Positions 36,026 through 43,374 of a stretch of DNA of 45,329 nucleotides are shown in pieces. Numbering within the stretch: the first letter of the stretch is position 1; the number at the start of each line of letters is the position of its first letter. A model generated the notes under the pieces. The model did no database searches and had not been told where the DNA came from. It saw nothing but the letters and a program-made list of their open reading frames with translations. The DNA comes from Verrucomicrobium sp. BvORR034 (GTDB lineage: Bacteria; Verrucomicrobiota; Verrucomicrobiia; Verrucomicrobiales; Verrucomicrobiaceae): contig NZ_BATQ01000152.1 in assembly GCF_000739635.1 (NCBI RefSeq), positions 1 through 45,329 on the forward strand. The letters are read 5' to 3'. The translations under genes were made by a program, and so were the position numbers.

Positions 36026-36031
36026 TTACCG
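35992..36031 (-). repeat. Octamer array over the hybrid-kinase stop codon
   Basis: On the minus strand, five gapless units: CGGTAAGT, CAGTAATT, CGGTGATT, CAGTAATT, CAGTGGGG. The stop TAA (36028-36026) lies in the first unit. Confidence 0.85.
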
Positions 36032-38368
36032 TCCCATCCCGCCATGTCGCGTGGAGAGCACGGACTTCACAATCCGAAGCAACTCCAACGGCTCATACGG
36101 CTTGGGCAGCACGGCGGCGAAGCCAGCGGAGGCGGGCTGGGCCATGACGGGGTCATCTGAATACCCGCTGCTGACGATGGCGAGCACGCCGGGGTCCAGC
36201 GCTCTTAGCTTTTCCATCGTACGGAGGCCGCCCATGCCATTGGGGATGCTGAGGTCCAGCACCACAAGGTCGAAAGGCTTGCCGTCCGAGAGCGCCTGCT
36301 GGTATAGCCGCACGGTCTCATTGCCATCAAGTGTTTCCTCGACCTGATAGCCTTCCCTCTCCAGACCGCGCAGGATGAGGGCGCGCACAAGATGGTCGTC
36401 TTCCAGCAACAGGATGCGGGGCGTGGCGGGCGGGCCAGGCAGGAAGCAGCTGATGAGATCCACCGTTTCGGCGTCCTCCACCTCGGCCTCGGAATCCACG
36501 GGCAGGAAGAAGCGCACCATCGTGCCCGTGTTCACATGCGAGCTCACGGAGATCGCGCCGCCGTGAGCCTTGGCGATGGATTCACAAACCGTCAGCCCCA
36601 GGCCGGTGGCATTCTCGTCGGTGCGAGTGGTGAAATACGGCTCAAAGATGCGGCCCAGGTTCTTGGCGGGGATGCCCTCGCCATTGTCATGAATCTCCAG
36701 CGTGACGCCAGCCAGGGAACCGGGTTCATCAGAAAGCGTTTCCTTGGGGAACATGCGGGCTGCATCCGCCGCCTCACAGCGCACACGAATATCGCCGCCG
36801 GTGGCGCGCACGGCCTGCTCGGAGTTCCGCACCAGGTTCGAGAGCAAACGACGGAACTGGTTGGGATCCAGCGCCACCTCAGGCATGTCCTCCTGGACCT
36901 CCACGAAGTAATTCACCCGGTCCACCCGCTGGTGGTTGTAGAAGAAGGCGCGCACCAGGTCCGCCAGGGAAACCATGCGCTTGATGGGGGCGCCGCCGCG
37001 GGCAAAGGTGAGAAGCTGCTGCACCAGACTCTGGGCCTGGAAGGTGGCCTGCTTGGCCGTGGCCAGCTCCATGAGCTTCTCGCCAGAGGACCCAAAGCGC
37101 ATCTCCGCCAGGGAGAGGTTGCCCAGCAGCACGGTGAGCAGGTTGTTGAAATCATGAGCAAACCCGCGGGCCAGGAGGCCGAGAGACTCGAGGCGGTCCA
37201 TGCGATGGTTGCGCTCCAGTTCCAGCTTGCGGGAGGTGATGTCCTTGAGCAGCAACAGCGATCCACTGCCGAAGGGGTAGGTTCGAGCCTCAAACCAGGT
37301 CTGGGTCTCCTCCAGGAAGATCTCCCGCGTGGCAGTCACGCGCTGGTGGAGGGACTTGTCCAGCTCCTCTTCATGAGCGGCCTTCACGCTGGGTGGCAGC
37401 ACTTCCCAGAGGCTCTGGCCTACGAGCTGCGCCTTCTCCCGGCCAAAGAGACGGGCGGCGCTGCTGTTCACGTAGGTGAAGGTCCAGCGACCATCCAAGG
37501 CCGCGAGGGGATCAGAGATGCTCTCGACAATGTCTGCCAGCGGAGCGGGCTGCTCCCCGGCGGTGACCGGACCCGTCGGGCGGTTCTTGGCCCCTGCCTC
37601 GCCCACGCCCGCCACTGCGGAGGTGCGGGCGCTGAGCTGGCGCAAGGTGATGATCATGCCATTGATGCTGCCGTGCTCATCCCGCACCGGGGACATGCGC
37701 TCTTCACAGAGCGTGGCCCCGCCCATGCGATGACGGAGATCGACACGACGCATCAGGGGTGAGGGCACCTCTCCGCCGGTCTTCACGGTGGCTTGGTAAA
37801 CTTCATCCAGGGCGCAGCCCCACGCCTCGGCCTCTTCCCAGCCCGTGAGGCGCACCGCCTCGTCATTCATAAACCGGATGCGCCCGGTAAAATCGGTGCC
37901 GATCACGGCTTCGTTCAAACTCTCAAACGCCTGCACCACGAGGTGCTCGCGCCGCTCATTGAGCAGAGCCCGCTGATGCCGCGCCACGGCCAGTTCCAAC
38001 GCGGTGCGCAACTCGCCAGTGCGAAGCGGTTCCCACGCGATCTGGCAGAAAGGCAGATCCTGGGCCGCTACGAGCAGGCTGGCATCCACCTCGGGCGAGA
38101 CCACCAGCACCACAGCCAGTCGGCGGTTCAGCGCCAGATCACAGGTCACCTGCAGCGTGCGCTCAGCCGTCGCGGCCGAAAGCGAGACCACCACCGCATC
38201 GGGTGAGGTTTCCTCCGCCAGCTTTAAGGGCTCGGGACCCACGGCCGTATCCGCCGACGTCACTCCCACGACTTCATGCCCGAGGGCGCGAAGAGCCCCC
38301 GCCACGCCGCCACCGGACTGGGATCTTTCGTCCAAGAGAAGTACACGGATAGGGGCAGAGGGGACCAT
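36026..38368 (-). CDS. Hybrid sensor histidine kinase with PAS and receiver domains
   Basis: The product has 780 residues and no membrane segment, so it is cytoplasmic. The N-terminal part (7-125) looks like a receiver domain without its phosphorylation site (VVVSLSAAT where the Asp should be). A PAS domain follows (about 140-230), then a second (about 275-375). The HisKA region carries the H-box GFAHDFNNLL with His405. The ATPase has LLSNLVRNSEQA (N box), DNGEGIP, FEPYFTTR and GLGLT. The C-terminal receiver has LLLEDDHLVR, Asp705 in VVLDLSIPNGMGG and VLPKPYEP. It probably passes phosphate from His405 to Asp705; no output protein is near. It follows the other kinase by 87 bases. Confidence 0.93.
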   Translation of the reverse strand: MVPSAPIRVLLLDERSQSGGGVAGALRALGHEVVGVTSADTAVGPEPLKLAEETSPDAVVVSLSAATAERTLQVTCDLALNRRLAVVLVVSPEVDASLLVAAQDLPFCQIAWEPLRTGELRTALELAVARHQRALLNERREHLVVQAFESLNEAVIGTDFTGRIRFMNDEAVRLTGWEEAEAWGCALDEVYQATVKTGGEVPSPLMRRVDLRHRMGGATLCEERMSPVRDEHGSINGMIITLRQLSARTSAVAGVGEAGAKNRPTGPVTAGEQPAPLADIVESISDPLAALDGRWTFTYVNSSAARLFGREKAQLVGQSLWEVLPPSVKAAHEEELDKSLHQRVTATREIFLEETQTWFEARTYPFGSGSLLLLKDITSRKLELERNHRMDRLESLGLLARGFAHDFNNLLTVLLGNLSLAEMRFGSSGEKLMELATAKQATFQAQSLVQQLLTFARGGAPIKRMVSLADLVRAFFYNHQRVDRVNYFVEVQEDMPEVALDPNQFRRLLSNLVRNSEQAVRATGGDIRVRCEAADAARMFPKETLSDEPGSLAGVTLEIHDNGEGIPAKNLGRIFEPYFTTRTDENATGLGLTVCESIAKAHGGAISVSSHVNTGTMVRFFLPVDSEAEVEDAETVDLISCFLPGPPATPRILLLEDDHLVRALILRGLEREGYQVEETLDGNETVRLYQQALSDGKPFDLVVLDLSIPNGMGGLRTMEKLRALDPGVLAIVSSGYSDDPVMAQPASAGFAAVLPKPYEPLELLRIVKSVLSTRHGGMGR

Positions 38369-38455: not shown

Positions 38456-41400
38456 CTAGGAGCGGGGCGCGTCTGACACGGGAAACTCCAGATGAAAACT
38501 GACCCCCTCACCCGGTTGTCCCTGCACCTTCACCTCGCCGCCGAGCTGGCCAGCAAAGACGCGCAAGATCTTCATGCCCAGCCCATTGCCCCGGTGGTCG
38601 TCAAAGTCTGGCGACATGCCAACGCCGTCGTCTTTCACCAGGAGATGAGCCTTTTGATCATCCCAGTGGAGTTCTACCGTCATCTGGCCGCTTCGTCCGT
38701 CGCCATAGGCATGCTGGAAGGCGTTGGAGACCATTTCGTTAAGCGAGAGCGCCAGAGGCATGAGCCAGTCTTCCGGCAGGAGTTCATCCTGCACGCGCAA
38801 ATCCAGCTGCACCTGCTCCACTGCCACCTCGTAGCATTCCCGGAGGTGGGAGATGAGACCATCCGCAAAAGCATGGAAGCCGCTGGATTCCCCACTGGCC
38901 AGTGCATAGAGATGCTGGTGCAGCGCGGCGAGCGAACGCACGCGGTTCTGGCTGGAGCGCAGAGCGTCCCGTGCCTCTTCATTGCGCAGCGTGCTCAACT
39001 GGAGGTTGAGCATGGAGGTGATGATCTGCAGGTGATTCTTCACCCGCCGATAGGACTCACCCAGGATGATGCGTTCGCGCTTCAAGTCCTCGGCATCCGG
39101 CTTCGCTGGAGCAGGAGGTGCCGGAGGCTCCGGCGGAGATTCAGCCCGCGTGGTAAAGGCCGAGGCGGGGATGTGGACCTTGGTGGCTCCAGCATGTCCC
39201 GGATCTGCCGTGAAGTGCCCGGCCGCACTGGCCACTCCGGGAGCGGAGGCAGGGAGGTCCTTGAGGAGGGAGATCGAAAGGTCGCCATCCTCCGGGTGTT
39301 TCTGAATCTTGAAGACACCTTCCTGACGCCCCTTGTCGCGATGGTAGAAGGCCCAGTGGTGCCCTTCCCCATCAGGATCACTGGACAGGCTGGCGAGTTC
39401 GCCATAGAAGCCGGTGGCATCCGAGGGGCGAAAGAGGCAGTGCAGGCCGCGCCCGGTGATTTCTGTCTCCTCGAACCCGAACTGTTCGACGGCTTCCGGA
39501 CTCCAGTCCGAGATGCGACCGTGCAAGTCTGTGGTCAGCAGCACCAGCGGACGATACTCCACCGGAGCCGGCGGCGCGGGAGCGTACTCAGGCTGGACCT
39601 CGGCGGCAGTGGCGAACAGCGGGTGCGTCCAGTCCATGGCTGGGGCTGGCTCAGGCGCGGGCGGTGGCTCCACCTTGGGCTGGAAGAAATGAATGGTGAA
39701 CAGAGGCTGGCCCAGGGCATCCGGCACGATGGCGAGACGCAAGTCCACCTTCAGAGCATCCCCCTCCCGCGGCACCACGGTGACCGTGGTCCAGGCAGAG
39801 CGCTCCCCGCGCTCCAGCAAATCCCGCAGAGTGGAGGCGCGTCGGGTAACGCTTTCCGAATCCAGCCAGCGATCCAGTCGCATGCGCCGCAGTTCGGCAC
39901 GGGTGTAGCCCAGCAGAGACTCCACGGCAGGGTTGGCATCGAACACCGCACCGAGACGGTCGGCCAACAGCACCGGCAGAGGATTCTCGTGCACGAGCGT
40001 GCGGAACTTGGCCTCGGTGGAGCGCAGCATTTCCTCGCTCCTCCGGGTATCGGTCACATCTTGGAGCATGGCCAGCAATCCGCCACCGGGCAGGGAAACG
40101 GGCCGGATCTCGATGTCTTTGACCACGCCTTCAGCACTCACCAGAGCCATGGCGAGGGTAAGCTGCTTGCGCCAGATGCCCTCGCGCCATTGCAGCAGCA
40201 CCTGCTCACGATGGACCTCATCCCGGCAGGCCTCCGCCAGCCACTCCTCCATGGTGCGACCGTCCGCCAGAGGGCGGCCCAGCAGCAGGTGGAGATGGGC
40301 GTTGCAATAGAGGGGACGGGCCCGCTCATCGAGTACGAGGAGTCCACACGGGGCGAGCTCCAGCACGGCGCGCAGTCGAGCCTCACGCTGGCGGGACACA
40401 CCTTCAGAATCGGTAGCCTCTTTCAGGGCCATGCGCATGCGGGCCACTTCCTCCGCGAGACGACGCTGCACGGCTTCATCCACGGCAGCCACCACATGGC
40501 TCTGCGGCAGAGGCGCAGCCGCCGGGGCAAGGGTATGAGTCGGAGCCACGGTGGGCAGAAGGGTGGGCGCAGGCGGAGATGGGGCCAGAATGGGCACCAC
40601 CGTGGCAGGACGCGGGGGCAGCTTGGTCTCGCCAAAGATCACGGAGGCAGGAGGCGGCACGATGGAGGATTGCAACCCGCAGGGCTCCAGTCCTGCCAGT
40701 CCGGCAAGGCCAACCGCCAGCACGGCATCTCCTTCCATACCGAGCGGACCGCCCGGGGCCTGGGACACCAGCCAGCGATCCGGCGGCGCATCGTCGTTCT
40801 GCAGCGCGCCGGGAGCATCGCCATACACATTGATCACAGCGTGTGGATGGTCGCCCTCCAGCACGGATTTGATCGTGGCCAGCACATGCTGTTGCAGCGG
40901 CCCGCGCTCGATCTTCTCGCCAAAGGCCTCCCACATGGGAGTCTCCCCGACCACCACCCCCTCAGAGAGGAGCTGGCTGGAAACACCGCGGCTCATGCGC
41001 AGGATACGCCCCTCGGCGTCCAGGGCCATGAGCGGCAGGCTGGCCTGCCAGAGCGCGGCGCCCGGGTCTGAGGAGTCAACACGGGCTGACTCCTCCTGGG
41101 TGCTTCGTTCGCTTCCGCCCGGGCTGGCGTAGAGATGCTCACAGCTGATCATCACACCGCCGATGCTGGTGTCGATGTGCCGCCAGGGGCGAACCTCCCA
41201 GCGATACACCACGGGGCGGCCGTCCTGGGTTGTCGCGTCCCGGTCACTGCGCACCACCTGGCCGCCCAGCGCCCGCTCATACACGTGACGCCAGCCGGCA
41301 TGAAGTGCAGGAAACAACTCGTACTGGCTCTTCCCCACCACATCCACCTGGGTGAGCTTGAAGTCCTCCAGCCAGCGGCGGTTGGCCAGGAGATAGCGCA

Positions 41401-41647
41401 TCTGCTGGTCGAACATCGCCATGGCCACCGGCGCATTTTCAAAAAGAAGCTTCATATGCCCCGCATGCACAGCCGGAACCTTGCCCGTGGCAGGCGCTGC
41501 GCCAGAGGCGGGAGCAGATGCAGGGACGGCTGCGGGATTCGCCCCGGAGGCAGAAGCGGCAGCGCCGAGTGATTCAGGGGCATCCGACGTGAGCTGGGAG
41601 TGACCTTCGATCACCTGCCGAAGAATGGATGCTTGCGGATTCCCCAT
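38456..41647 (-). CDS. Multi-PAS sensor kinase of the HisKA_2 type without the usual histidine
   Basis: The product has 1063 residues and no clear membrane helix. An Ala/Ser-rich start (20-60) is followed by a series of about five PAS-like domains, including MKLLFENAPVAMAMFDQQMR, LRAVLELAPCGLLVLDERAR, FRTLVHENPLPVLLADRLG and LTTDLHGRISDWSPEAVEQF, with Pro-rich linkers. The kinase part has GESYRRVKNHLQIITSMLNL and an ATPase with NEMVSNAFQHAYGDG, VKDDGVGMSP and GNGLGMKIL. In the HisKA_2 family the phosphorylated His precedes RVKN; here that position is Arg867. The ATPase motifs look intact, so it may bind ATP yet not autophosphorylate in the normal way. It lies between rlmH and the hybrid kinase gene. 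Confidence 0.9.
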   Translation of the reverse strand: MGNPQASILRQVIEGHSQLTSDAPESLGAAASASGANPAAVPASAPASGAAPATGKVPAVHAGHMKLLFENAPVAMAMFDQQMRYLLANRRWLEDFKLTQVDVVGKSQYELFPALHAGWRHVYERALGGQVVRSDRDATTQDGRPVVYRWEVRPWRHIDTSIGGVMISCEHLYASPGGSERSTQEESARVDSSDPGAALWQASLPLMALDAEGRILRMSRGVSSQLLSEGVVVGETPMWEAFGEKIERGPLQQHVLATIKSVLEGDHPHAVINVYGDAPGALQNDDAPPDRWLVSQAPGGPLGMEGDAVLAVGLAGLAGLEPCGLQSSIVPPPASVIFGETKLPPRPATVVPILAPSPPAPTLLPTVAPTHTLAPAAAPLPQSHVVAAVDEAVQRRLAEEVARMRMALKEATDSEGVSRQREARLRAVLELAPCGLLVLDERARPLYCNAHLHLLLGRPLADGRTMEEWLAEACRDEVHREQVLLQWREGIWRKQLTLAMALVSAEGVVKDIEIRPVSLPGGGLLAMLQDVTDTRRSEEMLRSTEAKFRTLVHENPLPVLLADRLGAVFDANPAVESLLGYTRAELRRMRLDRWLDSESVTRRASTLRDLLERGERSAWTTVTVVPREGDALKVDLRLAIVPDALGQPLFTIHFFQPKVEPPPAPEPAPAMDWTHPLFATAAEVQPEYAPAPPAPVEYRPLVLLTTDLHGRISDWSPEAVEQFGFEETEITGRGLHCLFRPSDATGFYGELASLSSDPDGEGHHWAFYHRDKGRQEGVFKIQKHPEDGDLSISLLKDLPASAPGVASAAGHFTADPGHAGATKVHIPASAFTTRAESPPEPPAPPAPAKPDAEDLKRERIILGESYRRVKNHLQIITSMLNLQLSTLRNEEARDALRSSQNRVRSLAALHQHLYALASGESSGFHAFADGLISHLRECYEVAVEQVQLDLRVQDELLPEDWLMPLALSLNEMVSNAFQHAYGDGRSGQMTVELHWDDQKAHLLVKDDGVGMSPDFDDHRGNGLGMKILRVFAGQLGGEVKVQGQPGEGVSFHLEFPVSDAPRS

Positions 41648-41754: not shown

Positions 41755-42195
41755 TCACTCCCGGTGATACGGATCCCCCCTGAGGATGGAATAGCCGCGG
41801 TAGATTTGCTCCAGGAGCAGGACGAGCGCCACCTCGTGTTGCAGAGTCATGGCAGAGAGGCACCAGAGCTCGTTGGCAGCCGCTTTGACCTTGGGCGAAT
41901 GCCCGTCCGCCCCTCCGATGAGGAAGGACACTCGCTTCCTGCCAGTGAGTTCTTGTTTCTCGATCCACTTGGCGAGCTCCATGCTCGTGAGATGACGACC
42001 CTTTTCATCCAGCACGATGCACCAGCTGTCCTTGGCCGCTTCCAGCGCGCGATCCCCCACCTGTTCCGGTGTCCCCTCCTTGAGCGTCACCATGTCCACC
42101 TGCGCCATGCGCCGCAAGCGCTTGGAGTAATCCTCCACACCCGCCTTGGCCCAGGGAAGAGCCGGCTTGCCCACTGATATGATTTGCCATTTCAT
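41755..42195 (-). CDS. rlmH: 23S rRNA pseudouridine-1915 N3-methyltransferase
   Basis: From ATG 42195-42193 it has 146 residues, the usual RlmH length. KWQIISVGKPALPWAKAGVEDYSKRL opens the SPOUT fold, FLIGGADGHSP is the S-adenosylmethionine knot loop, and LQHEVALVLLLEQIYRGYSILRGDPYHRE is the conserved C-terminus. RlmH methylates pseudouridine 1915 of 23S rRNA in assembled ribosomes. It is followed on the same strand, after 107 bases, by the PAS kinase gene, which seems to have its own promoter. Confidence 0.96.
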   Translation of the reverse strand: MKWQIISVGKPALPWAKAGVEDYSKRLRRMAQVDMVTLKEGTPEQVGDRALEAAKDSWCIVLDEKGRHLTSMELAKWIEKQELTGRKRVSFLIGGADGHSPKVKAAANELWCLSAMTLQHEVALVLLLEQIYRGYSILRGDPYHRE

Positions 42196-42257
42196 CCACA
42201 AAAAGACCCGCTCACTGCAATTTTTAAAAAAACTTGAATTACTCTCAACTGCCGGAC

Positions 42258-42324: not shown

Positions 42325-43374
42325 ATGAGCAGCGCCCATCGCCTTCGTAACTTGGCCCCAGTCGGGTGTGCCATCACCGCCCTGTTGACCCTTGCTTCCT
42401 GCGCGCTGCCGCCCAAGCAGGCGTGGCAGAAGATCCGCCACGACGGCCTGTTCGCCTACATCTCGTATGAGATGCGCACTCCACGCCGTCCGCTGGATGC
42501 ACCCGGGCCGGTGAAACCCATTGGCCCGGCGTCCAAGCCGATCCTCAACACGCCTTCCCAACCGCGCCCGCTGATGGCCCAGACGCCGGCCACGCCGACG
42601 AACTCCCAGAAGACAGGCACCGCCCGCACGGAAGGACGCGATGTGGCCAGCAGCACCCCAATGACTCCGCCCGAAGGCACCCTGACCGCTCATGCGGTGC
42701 CGGGACTACCGGGGTATGTGCGCTCACCCTACACCAATCCGCCGCGGCTCATTGATGTGAAGCGCAGCACAGCGGGCAGTACCATGGTCTGCCCGTACAC
42801 GAACAAACCCTTCATCGTACCCGCCGGAGCTGGGATTGAACCCAAGTCCAGCCCTGAGACAGAACTGGCAGATCGCCCCCGCACTGCCCCAGCGACTCCA
42901 GAAGCTCCAACCGTGCGGCCCAAGACCAGTCCCAAGTCTGGATCTGGCTCCGGATCCGGCCCCACGGGCCTCGCCAAGACGGAAGACACCAAGCCCGCTC
43001 CTCCGCAGTTGAAGGACATGGCCGGCCCTGCCAGCGGTCCTTCCTCGAACTCTGTTTCCGGCTCGAACCCGACTTCCGGGGCTGACGGCCCAAATGCCAG
43101 CACGAGCAAAGGGGCCGCCTCCAATCCCCCCGCGAATCCCACTGTCGCCACCACCCCAGCGCCAGCACCCGCTCCAGCTCCTGAGATTCCCTACGGTTCC
43201 CCCATCCAGGGTCGCCCTGGGTATGTTAACAGCCCCTACGCTGCGGCCCACCAGCTCGTGGACGTGACCGGCCTTCCCGTGGGCATGGAAGTGAAATGCC
43301 CCTACACCGGCAAGCTCTTCCGCGTGCCCCCACAAGACATGGCCTCCAGCAAGCCTGCGCCGGAGAATCGGTAA
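42325..43374 (+). CDS. Lipoprotein with two copies of a CPYT domain
   Basis: The product has 349 residues. A lipoprotein signal ends in LTLASC with Cys26 as the lipidation site. Two copies of a domain of about 45 residues occur near residues 125-170 and 290-335: both contain GYV-SPY, a DV pair, and then CPYT-K-F-VP. The linker of about 120 residues is Pro/Ser/Thr/Gly-rich and probably disordered. Each domain has one cysteine in CPYT. I recall single copies of this domain in other Verrucomicrobial proteins but no function. The last codon runs into an octamer array. Confidence 0.8.
   Translation: MSSAHRLRNLAPVGCAITALLTLASCALPPKQAWQKIRHDGLFAYISYEMRTPRRPLDAPGPVKPIGPASKPILNTPSQPRPLMAQTPATPTNSQKTGTARTEGRDVASSTPMTPPEGTLTAHAVPGLPGYVRSPYTNPPRLIDVKRSTAGSTMVCPYTNKPFIVPAGAGIEPKSSPETELADRPRTAPATPEAPTVRPKTSPKSGSGSGSGPTGLAKTEDTKPAPPQLKDMAGPASGPSSNSVSGSNPTSGADGPNASTSKGAASNPPANPTVATTPAPAPAPAPEIPYGSPIQGRPGYVNSPYAAAHQLVDVTGLPVGMEVKCPYTGKLFRVPPQDMASSKPAPENR

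Follow-up and report, generated by a model that had tools for sequence, protein, structure and literature searches.

A putative histidine pseudokinase with arginine at its phosphoacceptor position, encoded beside a hybrid kinase with a degenerate receiver in Verrucomicrobium

What can a sensor histidine kinase still do when the histidine that it should phosphorylate has been replaced? This question is raised by a locus of Verrucomicrobium sp. BvORR034, in a stretch of 45,329 nucleotides (contig NZ_BATQ01000152.1, positions 1 to 45,329; this whole stretch is referred to as the window). Here a gene for a large multi-PAS kinase with arginine at the acceptor position, which we call PHK, is followed 87 bases downstream on the same strand by a gene for a hybrid histidine kinase (hHK), whose first domain resembles a receiver that has lost its own acceptor. 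We propose, with a probability of roughly 0.6, that PHK is a histidine pseudokinase acting on hHK by contact, in the way that has been proposed for DivL and CckA. The features of PHK, in window coordinates, are as follows; DHp stands for the dimerization and histidine phosphotransfer region and CA for the catalytic, ATP-binding region.

38456..41647, minus strand: PHK, predicted multi-PAS HisKA_2-type histidine pseudokinase, 1063 amino acids (open reading frame, Pfam, family orthologues)
39047..39049, minus strand: codon of Arg867 at the phosphoacceptor position (CGG in the window, CGA in G002)
38828..39088, minus strand: DHp region, residues 854-940 (Pfam HisKA_2 at 868-939, structure model, best PDB match EL346, 4r39)
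38459..38827, minus strand: ATPase (CA) region, residues 941-1063, with both N and G boxes preserved (Pfam; dN/dS 0.02-0.07)
41135..41443, minus strand: PAS domain, residues 69-171 (PAS_4)
40031..40360, minus strand: PAS domain, residues 430-539 (PAS_7/PAS_8)
39704..40012, minus strand: PAS domain, residues 546-648 (PAS/PAS_8)
39293..39550, minus strand: weak PAS domain, approximately residues 700-785 (below the curated cut-off)

Residues 868-939 of PHK match the Pfam HisKA_2 model (PF07568) with a score of 61.5 bits, the cut-off being 22.3, covering positions 5-76 of the 76 in the profile, and HATPase_c is found at residues 968-1057. The HisKA_2 match, the only one at an E-value of 0.001 in the 8.58 Mb genome, begins one residue past Arg867. 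As read from the open reading frame, the H-box is ESYRRVKNHLQ, and in the alignment with EL346 (PDB 4r39/4r3a) Arg867 pairs with the H of QHRVKN. The N box (LNEMVSNAF) and the glycine boxes G1 (DDGVG) and G2 (GNGLGM) are all present. PHK thus has the profile match and the ATPase boxes of a HisKA_2 kinase and lacks the acceptor histidine of HRVKN. The initial annotation, made from the letters of the sequence, had placed Arg867 at the HisKA_2 phosphoacceptor position, and the CGG codon, the EL346 alignment and the intact ATPase boxes bear this out. In an AlphaFold2 model the PHK core takes the form of a DHp plus CA (predicted local distance difference test score, pLDDT, 80.8); its nearest PDB structure is EL346, with a template modelling (TM) score of about 0.6, and DivL (4q20) comes seventh by E-value with a TM score of 0.45. 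The sensory part had been described as five PAS-like domains. That there are several still holds, the number being three above the Pfam cut-off and a fourth below it; between residues 181 and 330 there is no Pfam match at an E-value of 0.1.

Is Arg867 a feature of this one genome, or of a lineage? Among 57 genomes searched as relatives, 56 matched PHK at an E-value of 0.001. In the family to which the organism belongs we searched 68 genomes with thresholds of 1e-60 for hHK and 1e-50 for PHK, which recovered hHK in 63 (G063 and G069 as pieces only, that of G069 being C-terminal) and PHK in 61. At these thresholds neither gene was found in G065, G076 and G077 or in G001, a genome of the same genus that spans 2.5 Mb and is 76% complete, and PHK was not found in G080, G084 and G087, where hHK is present. 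The residue table covers the 64 family genomes with at least one readable copy; it contains 61 PHKs and 63 hHKs whose N-terminus could be read, with both in 60 genomes. Position 867 is His in 57 of the 61 orthologues, Arg in three and Gln in one. The Arg carriers (G000, G002, G003) are every genome of the genus that has PHK, and the Gln carrier (G008) belongs to a sister genus, g6. A local mutation, which histidine in homologues had been expected to indicate, can be rejected, and so can a sequencing error: the Arg codons of the three species are CGG, CGA and CGG, synonymous and different. Histidine is indeed found in relatives outside the clade, so it has been lost, and the loss is an old one, common to the three species.

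Ratios of non-synonymous to synonymous change (dN/dS), calculated by the Nei-Gojobori method for the three species pairs of the genus, point in the same direction. PHK is full-length with an open frame in all three species. Residues 860-885, which include the H-box, show zero non-synonymous differences at a dS of 0.34-0.42; dN/dS is 0.02-0.05 in the DHp, 0.02-0.07 in the CA and 0.06-0.09 over the full protein, and falls to 0.005-0.016 in the third PAS region (residues 400-540). Because the H-box is free of non-synonymous change and dN/dS is low in DHp and CA, we consider the transmitter to be maintained. The conservation of Arg867, which the initial annotation had suggested checking, is thus found in 3/3 genus genomes with PHK, and the comparison indicates that the residue is held by purifying selection. 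With a predicted transmitter fold that is kept, a phosphoacceptor that is replaced and purifying selection on the protein, PHK has the properties of a putative histidine pseudokinase.

The neighbouring hybrid kinase has a degenerate receiver at its start, a point that the initial annotation had missed. Its features are the following.

36026..38368, minus strand: hHK, hybrid histidine kinase (pseudo-receiver, PAS, PAS, HisKA, HATPase_c, receiver), 780 amino acids (open reading frame, Pfam, family homologues)
38003..38368, minus strand: N-terminal pseudo-receiver, residues 1-122 (no Pfam Response_reg match; predicted receiver fold)
38183..38185, minus strand: Ser62 at the receiver phosphoacceptor (Asp) position (family alignment)
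38030..38032, minus strand: Glu113 at the conserved receiver Lys position (family alignment)
37154..37156, minus strand: His405, own phosphoacceptor in AHDFNN (His in 94/94 aligned homologues)
36254..36256, minus strand: Asp705 of the C-terminal receiver (Asp in 92/92 homologues reaching that site)

Pfam gives no Response_reg (PF00072) match in residues 1-130 of the window hHK, and none in the hHK of G008 either. In the hHK of a His-bearing relative (G021) the same model is found in the N-terminal 120 or so residues with an E-value of 1.6e-22. The N-terminus of the window protein is nevertheless modelled as a receiver fold of alternating strands and helices (pLDDT 81.5), and of the 50 PDB matches listed for this model the majority are receivers, PhyR being among the best. 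The domain would therefore be a receiver by predicted fold that lacks the Asp acceptor and the Lys. Across 63 family members the acceptor site is Asp in 58, Ser in three, Glu in one and Gly in one, and the Lys is kept in 59/63, its replacements (Glu in three, Val in one) occurring in the Ser and Gly genomes only. The remaining chemistry of hHK is invariant in an alignment of 94 sequences, 63 from the family and 31 from a second family of the order (f3): the own His of hHK in 94/94, and the N-box Asn and the Asp and Lys of the C-terminal receiver in all 92 that reach them. Within the genus, dN/dS is 0.14-0.25 in the N-terminal receiver versus 0.02-0.03 in the C-terminal one. The Glu at the acceptor site belongs to G022 (locus L060), the sole His-bearing family member with this replacement, and is possibly a fixed active-like state.

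The two sets of changes coincide: the four family genomes without the PHK histidine are exactly the four without the Asp and Lys of the hHK receiver. Within the family portion of the hHK tree, the stem branch of this four-genome clade accounts for 2.5% of the length. A tree of RpoB (support 93/92) and a tree of hHK built without the receiver (99/99) both place G008 as sister to the genus. Two independent losses, one in the genus (g1) and one in G008, are thus not supported, and since the two are sisters parsimony makes the co-loss in the family one event. Histidine pseudokinases as such are already known; what seems to be a new variant is that donor and acceptor have been lost as a pair.

Linkage also ties the two genes together. 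Counting separated copies, 60 of the 64 family genomes with either gene have both. The hHK gene immediately follows PHK in 28 of these 60, in genera g1, g3, g6, g7, g8 (part), g9, g10 and g11. In G006 (g4) another contig has an end piece of PHK immediately ahead of hHK, and this pair is probably adjacent too. In G007 (g5) the two are 3.5 kb apart, and in G016 (also g5), in g2 and in the remaining g8 genomes hHK is elsewhere. Genus g2 (L058, L059), with hHK elsewhere in the genome, has a PHK enlarged to 1406-1522 amino acids.

How might such a pair have worked, and how might it work now? In the ancestral state PHK would have autophosphorylated on the HRVKN histidine and handed the phosphate to the N-terminal receiver of hHK, where it would have tuned hHK autophosphorylation (His405) and relay to the C-terminal receiver (Asp705). 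In the clade, the donor His would then have changed to Arg (Gln in g6), and the acceptor Asp and Lys to Ser and Glu (Gly and Val in g6). With donor and acceptor lost, autophosphorylation of PHK and the phosphotransfer step would consequently be gone, both folds being kept. PHK most likely still senses, and perhaps still binds ATP. The signal would run from PHK to hHK through contact of the DHp with the pseudo-receiver, or through a mixed assembly. The proposal that PHK modulates an active partner kinase draws on genomic linkage and on the shared loss of sites. Accordingly, of the earlier suggestion of a pseudokinase regulating the adjacent hybrid kinase, what stands, by comparison of genomes, is a conserved putative pseudokinase linked with hHK.

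The wider order provides a broader sample. Among 386 genomes, 140 had an hHK match at an E-value of 1e-60. Of the 77 among these that do not belong to the family, 44, picked mostly by match strength, were inspected. A PHK-like gene precedes hHK at 31 of the 44 loci, all in f3; ten loci of another family (f4) have no adjacent PHK-like gene, and at three f3 loci the contig breaks off immediately upstream of the hHK gene. N-terminal profile scores exceed 140 bits in 26/31 of the f3 pairs, the weakest being those of G201, at 49, and of G223, which a contig end truncates, at 41. We scored 89 PHK-hHK pairs (58 from the family and 31 from f3, leaving out G018 and G063, both with a truncated hHK, and G069). 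PHK keeps both His and ATPase in 56, His with an impaired ATPase in 10 and the ATPase without His in 11, and has lost both in 12, the assignment of residues in the f3 sequences with the strongest decay depending on a loose alignment. Of the 31 f3 PHKs adjacent to hHK, 29 are missing the His, a residue of the ATPase, or both. The 12 that have lost both include G044, where the transmitter is absent and the receiver Asp was counted as lost on an alignment gap.

The receiver Asp of hHK is lost in 12/33 pairs with an impaired PHK versus 0/56 with an intact one (one Glu), the rows being related to each other. Fisher values take no account of this relatedness and are given no weight here. Four of the 66 His-bearing pairs have lost this Asp, and all four have an impaired ATPase. 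Parsimony on the whole tree gives five Asp losses and one regain, with a root inferred to be impaired. The pattern is consistent with PHK as donor to the hHK receiver, and is no proof of it because the rows are related, the root is impaired and most of the tree is impaired as well. In f4, nine of ten hHKs have a readable receiver start and all nine keep the Asp, in combination with an impaired PHK where PHK is known; the f4 PHK homologues of G054 and G045 keep LHRARN and have eroded ATPase boxes.

Individual f3 sequences show several forms of decay. In G175, G151, G149, G127, G037 and G100 (L205, L206, L207, L208, L209, L211) the H-box His is kept, and the N-box Asn and G-box residues are lost. 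The PHK homologue beside hHK in G044 (L070) is without the whole DHp-CA transmitter and retains its PAS part. An f3 clade of G140, G159 and G050 (L194, L196, L068) has Gln at the PHK acceptor position, and its hHK receivers keep the Asp and have lost the Lys (Leu or Phe).

Several of these observations weigh against contact between PHK and hHK as the explanation. Only about half of the family genomes with both genes have them adjacent, and the co-loss in the family counts as a single event. Over the whole tree all Asp losses fall where PHK is impaired, but 71% of the branch length is impaired, which makes this a weak test that does not discriminate. Fifteen of the 23 His-less pairs, all with f3 PHKs, keep the receiver Asp; the two sites are not strictly coupled, and strict co-loss across the order is rejected. 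A conserved ATP site, finally, would also suit a kinase with another acceptor.

Such a kinase might use His871 of KNHLQ, as the initial annotation had considered; this residue lies four positions further along, at a distance of roughly one turn of the helix. The intact ATPase boxes and the purifying selection would fit, as would the presence of an unchanged His871 in the three genus genomes. However, this residue is also found in 56/57 of the His-bearing orthologues and in EL346 (RVKNHL), and therefore represents no compensating change; G008, which likewise lacks the canonical His, has Gln in its place, and the receiver that we take as the former acceptor is dead in the same genomes. We regard another acceptor as improbable, and rescue by His871 as not supported. 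Somewhat less improbable, yet still unlikely, is that the PHK homodimer serves as an ATP- or ligand-driven conformational switch on a protein other than hHK, the linkage reflecting co-transcription of an older pair. The kept ATP site, the separation of the genes in g2, g5 and much of g8, the hHKs of G080, G084 and G087 with no PHK at the threshold, and the f3 receivers that keep Asp beside a His-less PHK, for which other donors may exist, would all agree with it. Against it, the two genes are usually kept together in a genome even when separated, both are missing at the thresholds used from G001, G065, G076 and G077, and donor and acceptor sites were lost together in one clade.

The changes in hHK might instead have nothing to do with PHK, if its pseudo-receiver had become a ligand-binding or dimer-contact domain as in ShkA, whose pseudo-receiver is reported to bind cyclic di-GMP (PMC7010744). 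A predicted receiver fold stripped of its active-site residues would agree with this, but the genomes that show the change are the four that lack the PHK His, on a clade stem that is a small part of the tree, and we consider the idea quite improbable. Very improbable, in our estimate, is that PHK is a decaying relic whose sites were lost as the module became unneeded and whose genes persist by chance. The faster evolution of the N-terminal receiver relative to the C-terminal one, and the incomplete genus genome (G001) in which both genes were missed at the thresholds used, could be taken that way; a full-length PHK with an open frame in three species, low dN/dS overall and still lower values at residues 400-540 could not. 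The reading that we prefer thus remains a pseudokinase acting on hHK by contact.

How does this pair compare with known systems? DivL of Caulobacter crescentus has a HisKA-type DHp and is encoded at a locus away from CckA. DivL is reported to have Tyr in place of His and to be without kinase activity, and an allosteric action on CckA has been proposed for it (PMC4211667, PMC5361649); it senses a separate regulator, DivK~P (PMC4211667). As so described, DivL and PHK share a multi-PAS architecture, a complete DHp-CA fold (predicted for PHK), a lineage-conserved non-His acceptor residue and a hybrid kinase as the proposed target. Of the NCBIfam models that hHK matches, CckA ranks in the top three (E-value 1e-52), yet this match is far below the cut-off of that model. 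Whereas DivL has Tyr and reads DivK~P, PHK is of the HisKA_2 type, has Arg and lies beside hHK, and the receiver is inside hHK and dead. PHK was considered as a DivL ortholog and rejected on account of its Arg and its HisKA_2-type DHp. EL346, of the HWE/HisKA_2 group, is the best match of the PHK core in both sequence and fold (4r39/4r3a), but has His in QHRVKN and a LOV sensor where PHK carries Arg and a set of other PAS domains. The phosphoacceptor His is also reported to be missing from some EL346-like LOV kinases, a subgroup of these HisKA_2-type proteins (PMC10359499).

In the PhyT/PhyP system of Sphingomonas melonis, PhyT has an HRxxN motif and a degenerate ATPase and acts within a multi-kinase network (PMC5898713). 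PhyT, like PHK, appears as a transmitter that is partly decayed and reused, and it resembles the f3 homologues with His kept and ATPase lost. The decay is opposite to that of the window PHK, where the ATPase is kept and the His lost, so that PhyT-style phosphotransfer would be impossible at the canonical site. In Corynebacterium glutamicum a ChrS pseudokinase forms heterodimers with HrrS by two-hybrid assay (PMC9491836); it resembles the proposed PHK in being a catalytically dead kinase that alters signalling through a partner kinase, and differs in being a laboratory frameshift variant in the CA domain whose partner is a paralogue. According to one commentary the phosphorylatable His is substituted, Arg being among the replacements, in about 1% of sequenced kinases (PMC5361649), and a 2025 perspective calls the on/off switching of pseudo-receivers a mystery (PMC12632262). 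Our literature searches, limited to open-licence papers, found no report of the PHK-hHK module.

Two further genes lie on the other side of PHK.

41755..42201, minus strand: rlmH-like gene upstream of PHK, a conserved family neighbour (homologues beside PHK at 49-98% identity)
42325-43374, plus strand: divergent neighbour of the rlmH-like gene, 349 amino acids

The former is presumably rlmH. The product of the latter contains a motif of the form PGYV-SPY-LIDV-CPYT-K-F-VP twice; several relatives align over its C-terminal 50-65 residues only, with 61-84% identity, and longer matches have about 40%.

Taken across the family and f3, the comparison suggests that, of the two proteins, hHK is the one that does not lose its chemistry, and that PHK would be an accessory input whose kinase chemistry is repeatedly dispensable, its PAS array and its partner being kept. 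It is also conceivable, and we put this forward tentatively as less than an even chance, that the joint loss of His and of Asp and Lys turned a His-Asp link into a phosphate-free allosteric one, with a pseudokinase docked on a pseudo-receiver in an otherwise fully active hybrid kinase; the other routes of decay in f3 (a dead ATPase with His kept, or a lost transmitter) would then form a natural series from phosphorelay input to contact signalling. Few bacterial two-component pseudokinases have been studied. Here a putative pseudokinase and a pseudo-receiver, apparent former partners, are encoded next to each other, and related genera have versions that are intact or have decayed in other ways; such natural pairs allow one to ask whether a former phosphotransfer interface can keep working as a contact.

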